Shown: positions 31,338 to 37,268, counted from the stretch's first letter. The stretch: 40,919 bases of DNA from Floccifex porci (GCF_009696175.1 NZ_VUMM01000015.1:1-40919); one strand, 5' to 3'. Made by a program: numbers and translations. Notes: a model not told the origin generated them from the letters alone.

Positions 31338-32102
31338 TTATCCTCTATGATTCTGTATAAAGTTTAAAATATCATGTCTTAACATTCGATACTCTTCCTG
31401 ATTGGCACGAATGTCCATATACATCTCCAATTGTTTCTCATATTCTTTTTCTAACATCAATACAGTTAATTCTCTTTGTTTCTTTACACTTCTTTTATAG
31501 AAAAGATATAAAATTCCAAATTGAAACAAAAATAAAAAGAAATGTAGAATTGTAACCATATAACCTTTATAAATTAAGCAAGCAACACTAAAGTATAAAA
31601 TAATCATCTGATTAACATATAAAAGAATCAGCAATACATTTTCTTTTAAATAAACAAACCAATGTTTTGATATAAACTGAATGCATATTGTATATAAAAT
31701 AAAATCGAATAAAAATTGAATGATATAAAACCAGAAAGGAAAATCCATCATTGTCATCTGATTTACTTTCCCAATGAATATATTAAAGAATCCTATTAAA
31801 ATCAGTTCTCCAAAACACATTACAGTTGCCAATACCACATAAGCTAGAATAATTCGATATAAAGATGCTTCTTTTCTAAAATAAAGATATAATCCCATCA
31901 AAAATATCAGACCCCATACAAACTTCAATCCCAACTGATTTTTTAATAAACTTCCAACCGGATTAAAAATAAAATGAAACCCAAATAGAATCAACAAAAA
32001 ATCTTTTATCTTATGTTTTGAATGTAAAAAATACACCAAAAAATAACCATAATTTATTTCCTGCAACAGAAAAATAAAATTCATATATAGAAAATCATTC
32101 AT
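31338..32102 (-). CDS. Multi-pass membrane sensor ending at a kinase H-box (half kinase A)
   Basis: This 254-residue protein has six or seven membrane segments (about residues 8-201), laid out like AgrC sensor domains. A cytoplasmic helix (about 205-254) follows, ending RMLRHDILNFIQNHRG. The RHDxxN motif is the phosphoacceptor H-box of GHKL histidine kinases (His at residue 243), but the protein stops eleven residues later, without second dimerisation helix or ATPase domain. Its last 39 residues are identical to those of the neighbouring gene. AGAGG lies before its ATG inside the end of that neighbour. Inferred role: signal-sensing, phosphoaccepting subunit working with the ATPase protein encoded upstream. 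Confidence 0.75.
   Translation of the reverse strand: MNDFLYMNFIFLLQEINYGYFLVYFLHSKHKIKDFLLILFGFHFIFNPVGSLLKNQLGLKFVWGLIFLMGLYLYFRKEASLYRIILAYVVLATVMCFGELILIGFFNIFIGKVNQMTMMDFPFWFYIIQFLFDFILYTICIQFISKHWFVYLKENVLLILLYVNQMIILYFSVACLIYKGYMVTILHFFLFLFQFGILYLFYKRSVKKQRELTVLMLEKEYEKQLEMYMDIRANQEEYRMLRHDILNFIQNHRG
31342..31458 (-). repeat. 117-bp direct repeat, copy 1
   Basis: It encodes the last 39 codons of half kinase A (except the final wobble base and stop). It matches 32108-32224 at 114 of 117 positions by eye. All three differences are third-position, silent changes. Flanking sequence on both sides differs. Confidence 0.9.
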
Positions 32103-32103
32103 T

Positions 32104-32889
32104 TTAACCTCTATGATTCTGTATAAAGTTTAAAATATCATGTCTTAACATTCGATATTCCTCCTGATTGGCACGAATATCCATATACATCTCCAATTGT
32201 TTCTCATATTCTTTTTCTAACATCCACATTGTAATCTCATTCTGTTTTATCAGACTTCTTTTATACAATATAATTAATAAAACCAATTGAAAAAGAAATA
32301 AAAATATCTGTATCAAGAAAATATAGACTATATATTTCGAATTTGTTAAATACAATAAACATCCAGCTGAAAAATAAGAAATAATTGCCTGGTTGATATA
32401 TAAGAAAATTAAATAGATGTTTTCTTTTAAAAATATTAAATATCGCTTTGAAAATAATTTTAAAGACAATGTGAACAAAATAAAATATAAAATACCTTGT
32501 ATACAATATAAATACATTGGATAACTCAACATATCAATATGTGACAGATCGTAATTAATCAGATGTAGATATCCCAATAATATTAATTCCGTAAAACTCA
32601 TGACCACAACCATAATCATATAAGATGTTAAGATTTTAAATACTGAACTTTTTTTATGATATAAAAACCAGATGCTCAATAAAGAAATCGTTCCCCAGAT
32701 AAATTTAAATATAATATTATTCTGAAGTTCATAAGCAATCGGATCATATACAAAATGATACATGAATAAAATAAGAAAGAAATCCCGTTTTTTATTTTCT
32801 GAATCAAAAAAATGAACTATAAAGTAACAATAATTTAATTCCTGAATTAGAAAAATAAAATGTAAATATAAATTTGTATATCCTGCCAT
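32104..32889 (-). CDS. Multi-pass membrane sensor ending at a kinase H-box (half kinase B)
   Basis: This 261-residue paralogue of the next gene has the same plan: six or seven membrane segments, then a cytoplasmic helix ending RMLRHDILNFIQNHRG, with the phosphoacceptor-type His at residue 250 and no ATPase domain. The membrane part is clearly related to but diverged from half kinase A (for example FIFLIQELNYCYFIVHFF against FIFLLQEINYGYFLVYFL), while the C-terminal 39 residues are identical. It starts five bases after the ATPase gene, with AAAGGA upstream. The two sensors may detect different signals and share one catalytic partner. Function is inferred. Confidence 0.75.
   Translation of the reverse strand: MAGYTNLYLHFIFLIQELNYCYFIVHFFDSENKKRDFFLILFMYHFVYDPIAYELQNNIIFKFIWGTISLLSIWFLYHKKSSVFKILTSYMIMVVVMSFTELILLGYLHLINYDLSHIDMLSYPMYLYCIQGILYFILFTLSLKLFSKRYLIFLKENIYLIFLYINQAIISYFSAGCLLYLTNSKYIVYIFLIQIFLFLFQLVLLIILYKRSLIKQNEITMWMLEKEYEKQLEMYMDIRANQEEYRMLRHDILNFIQNHRG
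32108..32224 (-). repeat. 117-bp direct repeat, copy 2
   Basis: This is the C-terminal coding repeat of half kinase B, 766 bp from copy 1 in the same orientation. Its end carries AGAGG, the ribosome-binding site of the following sensor gene. Confidence 0.9.
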
Positions 32890-32893
32890 ATCC

Positions 32894-33718
32894 CTAGTCC
32901 TTTATCTTCAAAGATACAAAAGAAGATACTTGTTGACTGGAAATATCAGTCTCAAATATTCCATCATATTCTTTACAGTATTTTTCAATGATCTTTAAGC
33001 CGATTCCATGTTCTTCTGGCTTTTCTTTTAAACTTTTCTCTATACTGGTATTTTCCAGACAGGAGTTTTGAACTTCAATTAACAAATACCCTCTTTTTAC
33101 ATTCATTTTTAAATTCACAAAACGTCTTGAAAACTTAACCTGTTCACAAGCTTCTATAGCATTATCCAGTAAATTTCCTAAAACTGAAATCAATACAATA
33201 TTATCTATATTTAAATTAGAAGGAATCACAATATCAATTGAATATTTAATATGCAGTTTCTTCATCAGCATCACTTTGTTGTAGACAATAGAATCAACGA
33301 TCTTATTATCCGTATAAAACATAAATAAAGATTCATAATGCGTTTTAATATATTCGTCAATCTGTTTGGTTGAAGTAATATCCTGGTTATACAATTCTTT
33401 TTGAAGTTTTAATTCCAGTTCCCCTAAATCTTTGCTCATCTGCATTGTCGCTACTATATGCTGATTCTGTATTTCTTTCTGTTTCAATATAATTTCTTTT
33501 TCGGCATTTTCTTTTGATTGCTGATCAAATTTTTTTGTGATTTTATACAATAGATATAAAGAATAAGAACCTACAATAATTAATACTGCCAGTAAGATCA
33601 CATTCACTGTTTTTGCTTTGCTCATCCAGAATAAAGGGGCAAAACCGGTCATAATGAGCTCACATAGAATAAATATCAAAATATCTTTTTCTTTTAAAAT
33701 TATTTTTATCGCATTCAT
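32894..33718 (-). CDS. GHKL histidine-kinase catalytic protein without the H-box His
   Basis: This 274-residue protein has two N-terminal membrane segments (about 13-30 and 38-58), then a coiled coil (60-110), then a helical dimerisation-like part and a GHKL ATPase domain. The ATPase domain shows N-box LGNLLDNAIEAC (180-191) and G-box HGIGLKIIEKY (238-248), as in AgrC-type kinases. Where the RHDYxNH H-box should be, the sequence reads MSKDLGELELKL (94-105): Lys replaces His. Other upstream His (87, 127) lack the following Asp. It can bind ATP but probably cannot autophosphorylate itself; half kinases A and B supply the missing His. It overlaps or abuts the regulator gene. Confidence 0.82.
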   Translation of the reverse strand: MNAIKIILKEKDILIFILCELIMTGFAPLFWMSKAKTVNVILLAVLIIVGSYSLYLLYKITKKFDQQSKENAEKEIILKQKEIQNQHIVATMQMSKDLGELELKLQKELYNQDITSTKQIDEYIKTHYESLFMFYTDNKIVDSIVYNKVMLMKKLHIKYSIDIVIPSNLNIDNIVLISVLGNLLDNAIEACEQVKFSRRFVNLKMNVKRGYLLIEVQNSCLENTSIEKSLKEKPEEHGIGLKIIEKYCKEYDGIFETDISSQQVSSFVSLKIKD

Positions 33719-33719
33719 A

Positions 33720-34421
33720 CTACAATCCTTTTAAAAACATCTGAAAGCTATATTCTGTTTCTTTTAAACGAGAACGACTGATGGGAACATAAGAGTGATC
33801 TTTTAAAATAAATTCTTTTTTATTAAATTCTTTTACATTCATAAAATTTACGATATAACATTGATGACACTGATGGAAATATCCATTTAATTTAGGAAAT
33901 AATGCCTGAAAATCATCCAATACCCGGTAAGTATGATCTTTACACTTGATTAAACTGTATCGTTTGATTCTTTCTATGGAATAAATATCACTTAAAGGAA
34001 CAACAAATGTATCCATTCCTGATTTAAAAGAAATGGTACGACTGTTGTTATTATAAATCTGTATCGCTTTTTCTAAAGCATCTTTTAAACGTCTTTCCAG
34101 TTCTGGTTTATAAATGAAGTAACAATGATCTACCTCAAATATATCAGTTACTTTTTCCAGATAATTGCTGATAAACAATACAATGGGCTGTTCAAACAGA
34201 TGATTGATTTTTTTGGCAATATCAATTCCACTGACTTTATTCTGTAAAACAATATCCAATATAAAAATAAAATTACGATTTTTATTTTTACAGAAAGATA
34301 TCATTTCTTTTTCATCTGTAAATGTATAAATATTAACTTCTTTTAAATTCATATTTTCAATGCATTTTTTTATTCTTTCAATCTGATGAATCTGATCATC
34401 ACATATCGCAATATAAATCAT
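33720..34421 (-). CDS. LytTR-family response regulator (AgrA-like)
   Basis: This 233-residue protein has a receiver domain (1-120) with acidic pocket CDD (residues 7-9), phosphoacceptor Asp56 in FILDIVL, and the conserved Lys in FIYKPEL. A LytTR DNA-binding domain follows (about 130-233; ISFKSGMDTFVVPLSDIYSI ... FHQCHQCYIVN ... YVPISRSRLKE). LytTR regulators bind direct repeats and usually control peptide-pheromone, bacteriocin or wall functions. It is first gene of the operon, AAGAGG before the ATG. The GHKL protein starts at its stop codon. Confidence 0.92.
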   Translation of the reverse strand: MIYIAICDDQIHQIERIKKCIENMNLKEVNIYTFTDEKEMISFCKNKNRNFIFILDIVLQNKVSGIDIAKKINHLFEQPIVLFISNYLEKVTDIFEVDHCYFIYKPELERRLKDALEKAIQIYNNNSRTISFKSGMDTFVVPLSDIYSIERIKRYSLIKCKDHTYRVLDDFQALFPKLNGYFHQCHQCYIVNFMNVKEFNKKEFILKDHSYVPISRSRLKETEYSFQMFLKGL

Positions 34422-34441: not shown

Positions 34442-34471
34442 ATTATAATATCCAAATCAATCTTTCGTAAA
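34442..34471 (-). promoter_or_regulatory. Probable promoter of the split-kinase operon
   Basis: Minus-strand TATAAT (34442-34447) with a weak TTTACG 18 bases upstream (34466-34471). The poor -35 fits an activated promoter, but no convincing LytTR direct repeat is seen. Confidence 0.45.
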
Positions 34472-34497: not shown

Positions 34498-34522
34498 AAG
34501 TTCATCTTTAATAGATGAACTT
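34498..34522 (-). terminator. Terminator of the sirohaem-bioY operon
   Basis: Minus strand: AAGTTCATCT-ATTAA-AGATGAACTT then TATTTG. It is a perfect 10-bp stem with the bioY stop in the loop; the T-run is interrupted, so strength is moderate. Confidence 0.65.
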
Positions 34523-35020
34523 GTTTAATCTTTTATAAATTTCACATGAGAATAAACATAAAAGGAAATCAGGAAAGATTGTAAGGAAACAGTTGATAAA
34601 TGCCATTATAATTCCAATAGGCTGCTGATAAAAAATATACATCATAAAACAATAATAGAAAAAACCACAGAAATAATAGGATAATAAACCGGCTATGGTT
34701 TTCTTTATGGTAGTTGTCTGTATGGAATTCATCACATAAACGGCCACCAGAAAACCGAAAAGAAAACCGAAAGTTGGTTTTAGTAGATATCCAATTCCTC
34801 CTCCAGAAGCAAAAACAGGTGCTCCTGATAATCCTAAACATAAATAAGTCATTAAAGTAAGACAGGCATGTTTTCTGTTCAGTAAAAGAGCACATAGTAA
34901 AACAAACAGCCATTGTAAAGTAAAATGCATTCCTATAAAATCCAAAGGAATCTGAATTTTAGAACCAATCGCAATTAAAGCGGTAAATAAAGCCATATAT
35001 GTCACATCTTTAGTTTTCAT
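34508..35020 (-). CDS. bioY: Biotin transporter BioY (ECF S-component)
   Basis: This 170-residue membrane protein has about six helices and the BioY signature GAPVFASGGGIGYLLKPTFGFLFGF (about residues 65-89) and HFTLQWLFVLLCALLL. It binds biotin and uses the shared energy-coupling factor module (EcfA1A2T), which is not in the window. The ATG overlaps the upstream fused haem gene by 11 bases, so it is probably co-transcribed with the sirohaem genes, although there is no direct pathway link. Confidence 0.9.
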   Translation of the reverse strand: MKTKDVTYMALFTALIAIGSKIQIPLDFIGMHFTLQWLFVLLCALLLNRKHACLTLMTYLCLGLSGAPVFASGGGIGYLLKPTFGFLFGFLVAVYVMNSIQTTTIKKTIAGLLSYYFCGFFYYCFMMYIFYQQPIGIIMAFINCFLTIFPDFLLCLFSCEIYKRLNKFIY

Positions 35021-37268
35021 GATGACAAATAAGCTCCTTTAATGATTCATAACTGGCCTGTTTTGCTTCATATATATGTTTTACTCCAAATTCCTTTAAA
35101 CGTTCTGTTGTTTTCTTTCCTATAGAATAGGCCACTCCCTTTTCTTTAAATTCTTCTAAATTTGAAATCGAATTTAAAAACAAAGATACATTGTTAGCAC
35201 ATGTAAAAATAACAGGATACTTTACATTCATCGATGGAATCAAACAAGGGTCGTTACGATATACACTCACTTTATGATAGTTGCATTTATCTATTAACTG
35301 ATCGATTTCATCTTTTTTATCGGATGAAAAATAATACACTGTCTGGTCTGAATTTATTATTAATTCATTCAACAATGTATCCGCATTATAAATAGATGGA
35401 ATAAAATCGGCCTGAATGCCATAGGATTTTAAATGCTGTGCACTTTTCTTTCCTACTACTGCAAATTTTGTATGTGAATATTTTCGTATGTCCTCTATAT
35501 ATTTAAAGAAACCATCTATTCCATACTGACTTGTAAAAAGTATTATATCTGGAATTTCCTGGATTTTATATGGAATCATTTCAATTTGAGAAACCATTAT
35601 TTCATGAACAATATAAGAATCCAGTAAAGCCGCTAATCTGGATTTCTGTTTTCCAATTTTAGGAAGAACCAATTCTGTTTTTTCTGAATAAAGCTTTGAA
35701 TTTTCCTGATGATAAGAAACGCATTTTCCTACAATAATAATAGCAGGAGAAGAAACAGAAATAGATTCATTCTGAATATCTTTTAAAGTTGAAAACTGAT
35801 TCTGATTGGATTCCATGCAAACATTAGACAATATGCCAATGGGCATATTTTCATCCATGCCATGCTGTATTAAATTCTTAGCGATTTCTTTTACTTTTTT
35901 TAAACCCATTAAAAACACAAGCGTTTCTTTTGATTTGGATAAAGATTCAAAATCAATATCCATATATTCTCCTTTTGAATTATGAGCGGTAATCACATGA
36001 AATCCATTGGATACGTTTCGATGAGTTAATGGAATCTGAAGTGAACCAGGTCCTGCAATAGAAGAAGATAAACCAGATATGATTTCATATGGAATTCCTT
36101 TTGATCTTAGATACTGTACTTCTTCATATCCTCTTCCAAACACAAAAGGATCTCCTCCTTTTAAACGAACCACAATTTTATACTGCAGTGCTTTTTGAAC
36201 CATTAATTCATTGATCTGATCCTGTTTTAAAGTATGATTATGACTGGCTTTTCCAACATAAATACATTCACAATCTTCTTTTGTATATTGTAGTAATTTC
36301 TGAGGAATCAATCGATCGTATAATATACAGTCCGCTTTTTTTACCACTTCCAATGCTTTTAAAGTAACATTTCCAATATTTCCAGGTCCTGCTCCCGTTA
36401 TGTAAACCATTCCAGACATCTGTTTGCGTATGTCTTTGGCCACTTGTCTGGCAACCTGTTCAGGATCTTTTCCGGTACAACAAGCTGTATATAAATGGTC
36501 TAAACCAAATAATCCATGAAAAGTAATCTGTCCTTTTTCTACTTTTGCATACCCTCCTATAGGATTCTGACAGGAGCTGTTCATCTCCTTTAAAAAAGCT
36601 CTTTCTGTCTGTATTTCCAGATCACTTGTTTCATCACAAAAGACATTCACCATTTCCAGTAATTCTATATTATCTTCTCTTAATTCAATTGCTAAAGCCC
36701 CCTGACAGCAGGAAGGAATCATTTGCTGGTAAGGCAATTCTTTATAATTCACATCCAGATTCAATCTTTCAATTCCCGCCTTTGCCAGAATCAGACCTTC
36801 CAGGTCCTGTTCTTTCATCTTTTTAAGACGAGTATCTACATTTCCTCTTATATCCACCACTTCTATGTCTTTATAGAGCTGCTGGATCTGTTTCTTTCGG
36901 CGAATGCTTCCTGTAGCTACTACACCTTTTTCATTAAAGTTCTCATGATTCAAGATCAATACATCATGATTATCGGCTCGTTTCCATGTTTTTGATAAAA
37001 CCAATCCATGTTTTAACTGACAAGGAAGATCTTTCATAGAATGTACAGCCATCTGGATTGTTCCATCCAGTAATTGCTGTTCAATTTCATTGATAAACAA
37101 TCCATTCCCTCCAATTTGCGACAATGGTTTTAAATTCGAATCTCCCTGGGTATGAATCACAACAATTTCAAACTGATGAAAAGGATATGCTTTTTCTAAA
37201 ACATCCACAACCGAATGCGTTTGTATCAAAGCCAGTTTAGATCCTCTGGTTCCAACTTTTATATGCAT
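35010..37268 (-). CDS. hemC-cobA-hemD: HemC-CobA-HemD triple fusion
   Basis: The 752 residues hold three enzymes in pathway order. Residues 1 to about 290 are hydroxymethylbilane synthase (KVGTRGSKLALIQT; dipyrromethane Cys in MNSSCQNPIGGYA). Residues about 292-525 are uroporphyrinogen-III C-methyltransferase (VYITGAGPGNIGNVTLKAL, LKGGDPFVFGRGYEE). Residues about 530-752 are uroporphyrinogen-III synthase (HemD), the least conserved part (VLPKIGKQKSRLAAL, AVVGKKSAQHLKSYGIQAD). Together they turn porphobilinogen into precorrin-2. With the Met8-type gene seven bases upstream, this makes sirohaem for the divergent reductase at 37867. Confidence 0.93.
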   Translation of the reverse strand: MHIKVGTRGSKLALIQTHSVVDVLEKAYPFHQFEIVVIHTQGDSNLKPLSQIGGNGLFINEIEQQLLDGTIQMAVHSMKDLPCQLKHGLVLSKTWKRADNHDVLILNHENFNEKGVVATGSIRRKKQIQQLYKDIEVVDIRGNVDTRLKKMKEQDLEGLILAKAGIERLNLDVNYKELPYQQMIPSCCQGALAIELREDNIELLEMVNVFCDETSDLEIQTERAFLKEMNSSCQNPIGGYAKVEKGQITFHGLFGLDHLYTACCTGKDPEQVARQVAKDIRKQMSGMVYITGAGPGNIGNVTLKALEVVKKADCILYDRLIPQKLLQYTKEDCECIYVGKASHNHTLKQDQINELMVQKALQYKIVVRLKGGDPFVFGRGYEEVQYLRSKGIPYEIISGLSSSIAGPGSLQIPLTHRNVSNGFHVITAHNSKGEYMDIDFESLSKSKETLVFLMGLKKVKEIAKNLIQHGMDENMPIGILSNVCMESNQNQFSTLKDIQNESISVSSPAIIIVGKCVSYHQENSKLYSEKTELVLPKIGKQKSRLAALLDSYIVHEIMVSQIEMIPYKIQEIPDIILFTSQYGIDGFFKYIEDIRKYSHTKFAVVGKKSAQHLKSYGIQADFIPSIYNADTLLNELIINSDQTVYYFSSDKKDEIDQLIDKCNYHKVSVYRNDPCLIPSMNVKYPVIFTCANNVSLFLNSISNLEEFKEKGVAYSIGKKTTERLKEFGVKHIYEAKQASYESLKELICHHEN

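Follow-up and report, generated by a model that had tools for sequence, protein, structure and literature searches.

A stretch of 40,919 nucleotides from Floccifex porci (GCF_009696175.1 NZ_VUMM01000015.1:1-40919; hereafter the window, to which all coordinates refer) contains, on the minus strand at 31338-34421, an operon whose products appear to constitute a naturally split histidine kinase of the AgrC type, in which a single ATPase subunit would phosphorylate the histidine of several co-encoded sensors; judged from sequence, the probability of this reading is roughly 0.85. In AgrC, the sensor, the histidine and the ATPase are joined in one chain. In this operon, by contrast, the histidine and the ATPase are encoded on separate membrane proteins, with one ATPase for several sensors. 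The operon consists of four intact open reading frames, encoding a LytTR response regulator, a GHKL ATPase and two multi-pass membrane proteins (the sensors S1 and S2), exactly as a preliminary description of this DNA had proposed, and these genes are tightly coupled, as the gaps between regulator, GHKL, S1 and S2 genes amount to only 1, 4 and 1 nt.

The GHKL subunit (274 residues; 32894-33718, minus strand) is composed of two transmembrane helices, DHp-like helices without a histidine and an HATPase_c_5 domain (PF14501, E-value 1.6e-20). Its N-box (N182 to N186, NLLDN; 33161-33175) and G-box (H237-G238-I-G240; 32999-33010) are intact, and N182, D185, N186, H237, G238 and G240 are invariant across 20 such subunits that lack the H-box histidine (H-less). 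The DHp region contains no HD or HN motif: in most of the intact kinases examined the histidine precedes the N-box asparagine by 83-89 residues, and the place where RHD would be expected is occupied by S95-K96-D97 (33428-33436), with K96 located 86 residues before the N-box. Hidden Markov model alignment with AgrC permits a register shifted forward by a few residues, and neither register holds a histidine at the H-box place, which bears out the earlier claim that this partner has lost the complementary residue. His87 of the same protein was considered as phosphoacceptor and rejected, as no acidic residue follows it and it is replaced by Tyr or Gln in relatives. In the AlphaFold model of the subunit (predicted local distance difference test score, pLDDT, 83), two N-terminal membrane helices are present, the second of which continues as a long helix to residue 111, followed by a second helix at 117-131 and then by the ATPase domain. 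The subunit is predicted to fold like the AgrC kinase module, which provides the best fold matches of its model in the PDB (6e52, 9.5e-10; 6e95; 4bxi); homology to this module is also found in sequence, where the best PDB matches are 4bxi (1.5e-9) and 6e52 (3.7e-8).

The histidine is instead carried by the sensors, S1 (261 residues; 32104-32889) and S2 (254 residues; 31338-32102), both of which end in RHDILNFIQNHRG. The preliminary description had placed both truncations at the same residue, eleven residues after the RHDILNF motif; the common end is as claimed and the figure of 11 is valid when counted from the histidine, only 6 residues following the motif itself. The histidines concerned are His250 of S1 (codon 32140-32142, within the H-box LRHDILNF at 32125-32148) and, according to the alignment of truncated sensors, His243 of S2 (codon 31374-31376), all on the minus strand. 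The membrane part of S1 comprises seven helices in an AlphaFold model (mean pLDDT 86); the seventh extends as a long helix, which is interrupted by a short break at 238-241 and followed by the final helix bearing the histidine. The membrane part of S1 and S2 has no family match in Pfam or NCBIfam scans, and the sensor fold has no significant counterpart in the PDB (best Foldseek E-value 2.6; VIA-align Z scores of up to 7.8 are confined to long helices), for which reasons naming the sensor after a known family was rejected.

The two sensors are far more alike at their ends than elsewhere. At the protein level, identity is 43% in the membrane part and 95% in the 42-codon tail, the last 39 residues being identical (32107-32223 in S1 and 31341-31457 in S2, minus strand), while at the DNA level it is 61% in the body and 94% in the tail; third positions of identical residues agree in 86% of cases in the tail and in 65% in the body. 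Because the DNA of the tail, silent positions included, is so much more similar than that of the bodies, the H-box tail has probably been homogenised between S1 and S2 by gene conversion, and the pattern over 31338-32889 suggests that conversion was limited to this tail. At other loci, the tails of tandem sensors exceed the bodies in identity less markedly or not at all.

Conservation of this layout in other genomes answers chance as its origin. When 118 related genomes were searched with S1, similar truncated proteins turned up next to GHKL and LytTR genes in arrays of between one and four, and profile searches were extended to 295 genomes of the same order. With a profile built from eight H-less GHKL subunits, proteins of approximately 270-340 residues ranked top, above canonical kinases of mostly 400 residues or more. 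The same division was found at 23 loci in 19 genomes belonging to two families, each combining an H-less GHKL protein with two transmembrane helices and one to four truncated H-box sensors, with a LytTR regulator present at nearly all of them. Among these loci, the GHKL gene is cut by a contig end in one case (genome G032) and the operon is broken across contigs in two others (G106 and G186), while a further locus (L052, in G027) was left out because it may represent one broken gene. Gene order varies between regulator-GHKL-sensors, regulator-sensor-GHKL-sensors, sensors-regulator-sensor-GHKL and sensor-GHKL-regulator, and carriers include Faecalitalea sp. UBA4312, Erysipelotrichaceae bacterium RD49, Firmicutes bacterium M10-2, Ca. 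Merdibacter merdigallinarum and uncultured Massilimicrobiota. The genome search that the preliminary description had called for thus yielded truncated H-box sensors beside GHKL and LytTR genes well outside the window, and its view that simple decay is not the explanation withstood this search, since one to four sensors retain HD in 19 genomes rather than occurring as isolated degenerate copies.

Absence of the H-box from the GHKL protein goes together with presence of a truncated sensor. The H-box is missing from 23 of the 24 short GHKL proteins that have a truncated H-box sensor next to them (a count that includes L052, whereas L053, a fragment preceded by unread bases, was set aside), and all 26 short GHKL proteins with an intact H-box are without such a neighbour (Fisher p ~2e-13). 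These proteins were drawn by similarity to split proteins, so their frequencies are not population values, although the association within the sample is not produced by the draw. A sensor profile searched over the 295 genomes detected no truncated sensors beyond the split loci, except contig-end pieces that continue them, and its next matches were the sensor and H-box parts of full-length kinases (for example a 433-residue frame, G270:C173, E-value 5.5e-18). The truncated sensors are homologous over their full length to the sensor plus H-box of unsplit kinases and therefore represent AgrC-type kinases truncated downstream of the H-box.

Selection appears at the residues that phosphotransfer would need. 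In an alignment of 27 sensors with identities to S1 down to 14% (mean column entropy 2.65 bits), the start methionine, His250 and Asp251 are the sole invariant residues, and Asn254 is kept in 26, giving HDxxN; HD is retained in 38/38 sensors checked, whose chains end 9-46 residues later. The LytTR regulator (233 residues; 33720-34421, minus strand; PF00072, 1.2e-9; PF04397, 1.9e-14) contains D8/D9, S85 and K105 in addition to Asp56 (34254-34256), the residue already singled out in the preliminary description, and Asp56, Lys105 and Ser/Thr85 are invariant in 20/20 split loci. Given that motif residues are invariant in sensors, GHKL subunits and regulators, both kinase halves and the receiver look functional, and the comparison of loci indicates that the split layout is no product of decay and is very probably kept as a working system in many related gut bacteria.

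With regard to its distribution, sampling of 395 genomes from the class and 392 from the phylum revealed no split locus beyond the order, and the kinases examined there were only full-length or H-bearing. In a GHKL-domain tree the split proteins form two groups and one long branch (L095), requiring 3 changes compared with 16.5 after shuffling, and monophyly of the split proteins is not rejected on this tree (approximately unbiased test, p-AU 0.25). Sensor type follows GHKL type: the first group (clade I) is accompanied by RHDxxN sensors ending 9-39 residues after the histidine, and the second (clade II), together with L095, mainly by NHDFxNH sensors ending 32-46 residues after it.

In the proposed mechanism, the GHKL subunit would associate in the membrane with a seven-transmembrane sensor whose C-terminal helix bears His-Asp-x-x-Asn, and this helix would supply the histidine that is missing from the DHp of its partner. 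Binding of a putative signal by the sensor would lead the shared ATPase to phosphorylate the sensor histidine in trans, and the phosphate would then be passed to Asp56 of the LytTR regulator to control transcription. In this manner, one ATPase and one regulator could serve several sensors that differ in their membrane parts and have the same tail. It has been described that the motif HE/DxxN/T is that of bifunctional kinases/phosphatases (PMC3591291), and the HDxxN of the sensors fits it; a sensor devoid of an ATPase subunit could, through this tail, dephosphorylate the regulator, as free CheA3 does with CheY6 (PMC3591291). That the sensors may be interchangeable is suggested by their identical tails and by the one-to-many ratio of the genes. 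A more elaborate version, which we put forward tentatively and regard as somewhat less probable than its negation, is a modular receptor array, in which seven-transmembrane sensors that differ in their ligand parts and carry one exchangeable H-box tail would compete for a single ATPase, bound sensors being substrates and free ones phosphatases. If so, the operon would sum or switch its inputs with the ultrasensitivity predicted for split kinases.

The alternative that survives best, although we consider it unlikely, is that the truncated sensors are regulators or anti-kinases that bind the GHKL protein through their tails, the histidine serving for packing only and the regulator acting without phosphotransfer from the sensor. 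The tails are indeed short (9-46 residues past the histidine) and the partner retains a DHp-like hairpin, and because of this shortness the docking surface for the response regulator must be completed by the partner. However, exactly H, D and (in 26/27) N are kept while neighbouring residues vary, and packing would not need a histidine; moreover, the partner has no other conserved acceptor, His87 included, and the receiver Asp and Lys stay invariant. It is still less probable, and indeed very unlikely, that the GHKL subunit mixes dimers with another, complete kinase, the tandem sensors serving other kinases. Genomes of this order do hold many unsplit HATPase_c_5 kinases, but no truncated sensor occurs away from an H-less GHKL gene other than as a contig-end piece, and a mixed-dimer arrangement does not sit well with a sensor type that tracks the GHKL type (RHDxxN with a short tail in clade I, mainly NHDFxNH with a long tail in clade II). 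Least credible of all is decay of a former full kinase whose pieces persist by chance, to which a frame break in the regulator gene plus a stop in the GHKL gene of one carrier (genome G054), the possible simple break at L052 and same-genus genomes without the system could be added, but which is opposed by the same division at 23 loci in two families with motifs invariant in both halves, and by the GHKL half, which in most loci is not a frameshift product because it has two transmembrane helices of its own and is located either upstream of the sensor or at a distance from it.

Three observations weigh against the split-kinase interpretation itself. The distribution is patchy, the split system being present in 0/4 other genomes of the genus. 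The DHp region of the GHKL partner is modelled with lower confidence (pLDDT 61-75). Finally, the 24th short GHKL protein beside a truncated sensor (L085, G109:C298) contains KHD near the H-box register; taking this as an intact H-box was left as ambiguous, given a spacing of 81 compared with 83-89 and the presence of KNN or KNQ in close relatives.

When compared with known systems, the operon shares with AgrC of Staphylococcus aureus (HPK10; the structures 6e52, 6e95 and 4bxi) an HATPase_c_5 domain with N- and G-boxes, DHp-like helices, a multi-transmembrane sensor and a LytTR regulator in the operon, and departs from it in not being one polypeptide. A predicted acceptor histidine and an ATP-binding domain on separate proteins are found in the window and at 22 further loci. 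In this regard the system is similar to CheA3/CheA4 of Rhodobacter sphaeroides, where the histidine is on one protein and the ATPase on the other and neither autophosphorylates alone (PMC3591291). Those proteins are soluble, with the histidine in an HPt P1 domain, and are joined by P5 in a chemotaxis cluster, whereas the operon described here encodes membrane proteins, with the histidine in a DHp-type helix and several sensors per ATPase; Pfam and NCBIfam scans of the four operon proteins detected no Hpt or CheW (P5) family. Hik36/Hik43 (PilL-N/PilL-C) of Synechocystis likewise form a split kinase, with two-hybrid binding to each other and to the regulator (PMC7656254), and differ in being of the CheA type with an HPt domain and no membrane sensor array. 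EnvZ with HisKA and HATPase on separate polypeptides is active in vitro, as cited in PMC3591291; the cut falls between the same two domains, except that it was made in the laboratory, while the present one is natural and its ATPase half retains an H-less DHp. The system is set apart from both AgrC and CheA because it lacks the single chain of the former and the HPt and P5 domains of the latter.

Thus, this system would work like a split kinase built from AgrC-type parts, and such an AgrC-type split is apparently undescribed: no report of it, or of one ATPase common to tandem sensors, was found in the open-access literature, closed-access articles and preprints not having been searched. The suggestion in the preliminary description of an undescribed signalling layout consequently stands for the AgrC-type family and falls for split histidine kinases at large, which are known as CheA-type systems and have been foreseen for others, HisKA proteins without HATPase having been counted in SMART and proposed as possible split kinases (PMC3591291). 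Split histidine kinases have so far been studied almost only in CheA, and a natural AgrC-type split found in numerous genomes within a single order of gut bacteria would offer a test bed for the dynamics predicted for split kinases (PMC3591291), for DHp function with a histidine helix from another chain, and for how multi-input receptors evolve when sensors are added to a single catalytic core. In addition, many membrane proteins now labelled 'hypothetical' and located next to H-less GHKL proteins could be annotated as putative phosphoacceptor sensors.

Besides the 23 loci, three architectural variants were encountered. At L137 (G238:C5, 4703-7179) the arrangement is a mirror image, with a LytTR regulator, a 129-residue protein with two transmembrane helices and IHHDYNNH, and a 427-residue GHKL chain with five transmembrane helices and no H-box. 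The H-box region of the small protein matches the Spo0B-type domain (PF14689 SPOB_a, E-value 9.6e-7); Spo0B differs in that it acts in a phosphorelay, accepting phosphate from a regulator, while here the partner ATPase is in the same operon. At L157 (G042:C11, 2857-4493) a 334-residue protein with seven transmembrane helices carries IRHDYKNV and ends approximately 79 residues past the histidine, and its 211-residue GHKL gene lies upstream, so that this pair is not a frameshift of one gene. At L052, a 474-residue sensor ends after MRHNVLHH and is followed by a 150-residue GHKL gene, where a simple break is possible. These variants support the split-kinase reading, histidine and ATPase being kept apart on two chains regardless of which membrane part goes with each. 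In Faecalitalea sp. UBA4312 (L040, G054:C33, 4409-5979) the reading frame of the regulator is disrupted and an in-frame stop interrupts the GHKL gene, with all four sensors open; these breaks reflect assembly error or decay, the assembly being incomplete. At L048 (G089:C141, 2393-5970), a 249-residue GHKL kinase with one transmembrane helix and FRHD lies beside two or three tandem membrane proteins of about 407 residues, whose kinase-like ends have no H-box and which look like pseudokinases.

The immediate neighbours of the operon in the window are bioY, a heme-synthesis gene and an M24 peptidase gene, and no agrB- or agrD-like gene is among them, small reading frames elsewhere not being excluded. 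The M24 gene is only 43-46% identical to its same-genus counterparts, too divergent to show an empty site. A terminator-like hairpin (34498-34522, minus strand) lies between bioY and the operon, which is therefore probably transcribed on its own; a promoter-like TTTACG-18-TATAAT is located 5' of the regulator (34442-34471, minus strand), a match in pattern only, as such sites are not above chance in the region. In relatives, genes whose products have signal-peptide-like starts often adjoin the split operon (L041, L045, L046, L051, L089, L090 and L093) and may be candidate targets; none is beside the operon of the window. Finally, a single gene at 35010-37268, with a product of 752 residues, encodes a fusion of porphobilinogen deaminase, tetrapyrrole methylase and uroporphyrinogen-III synthase (HemC-CobA-HemD).

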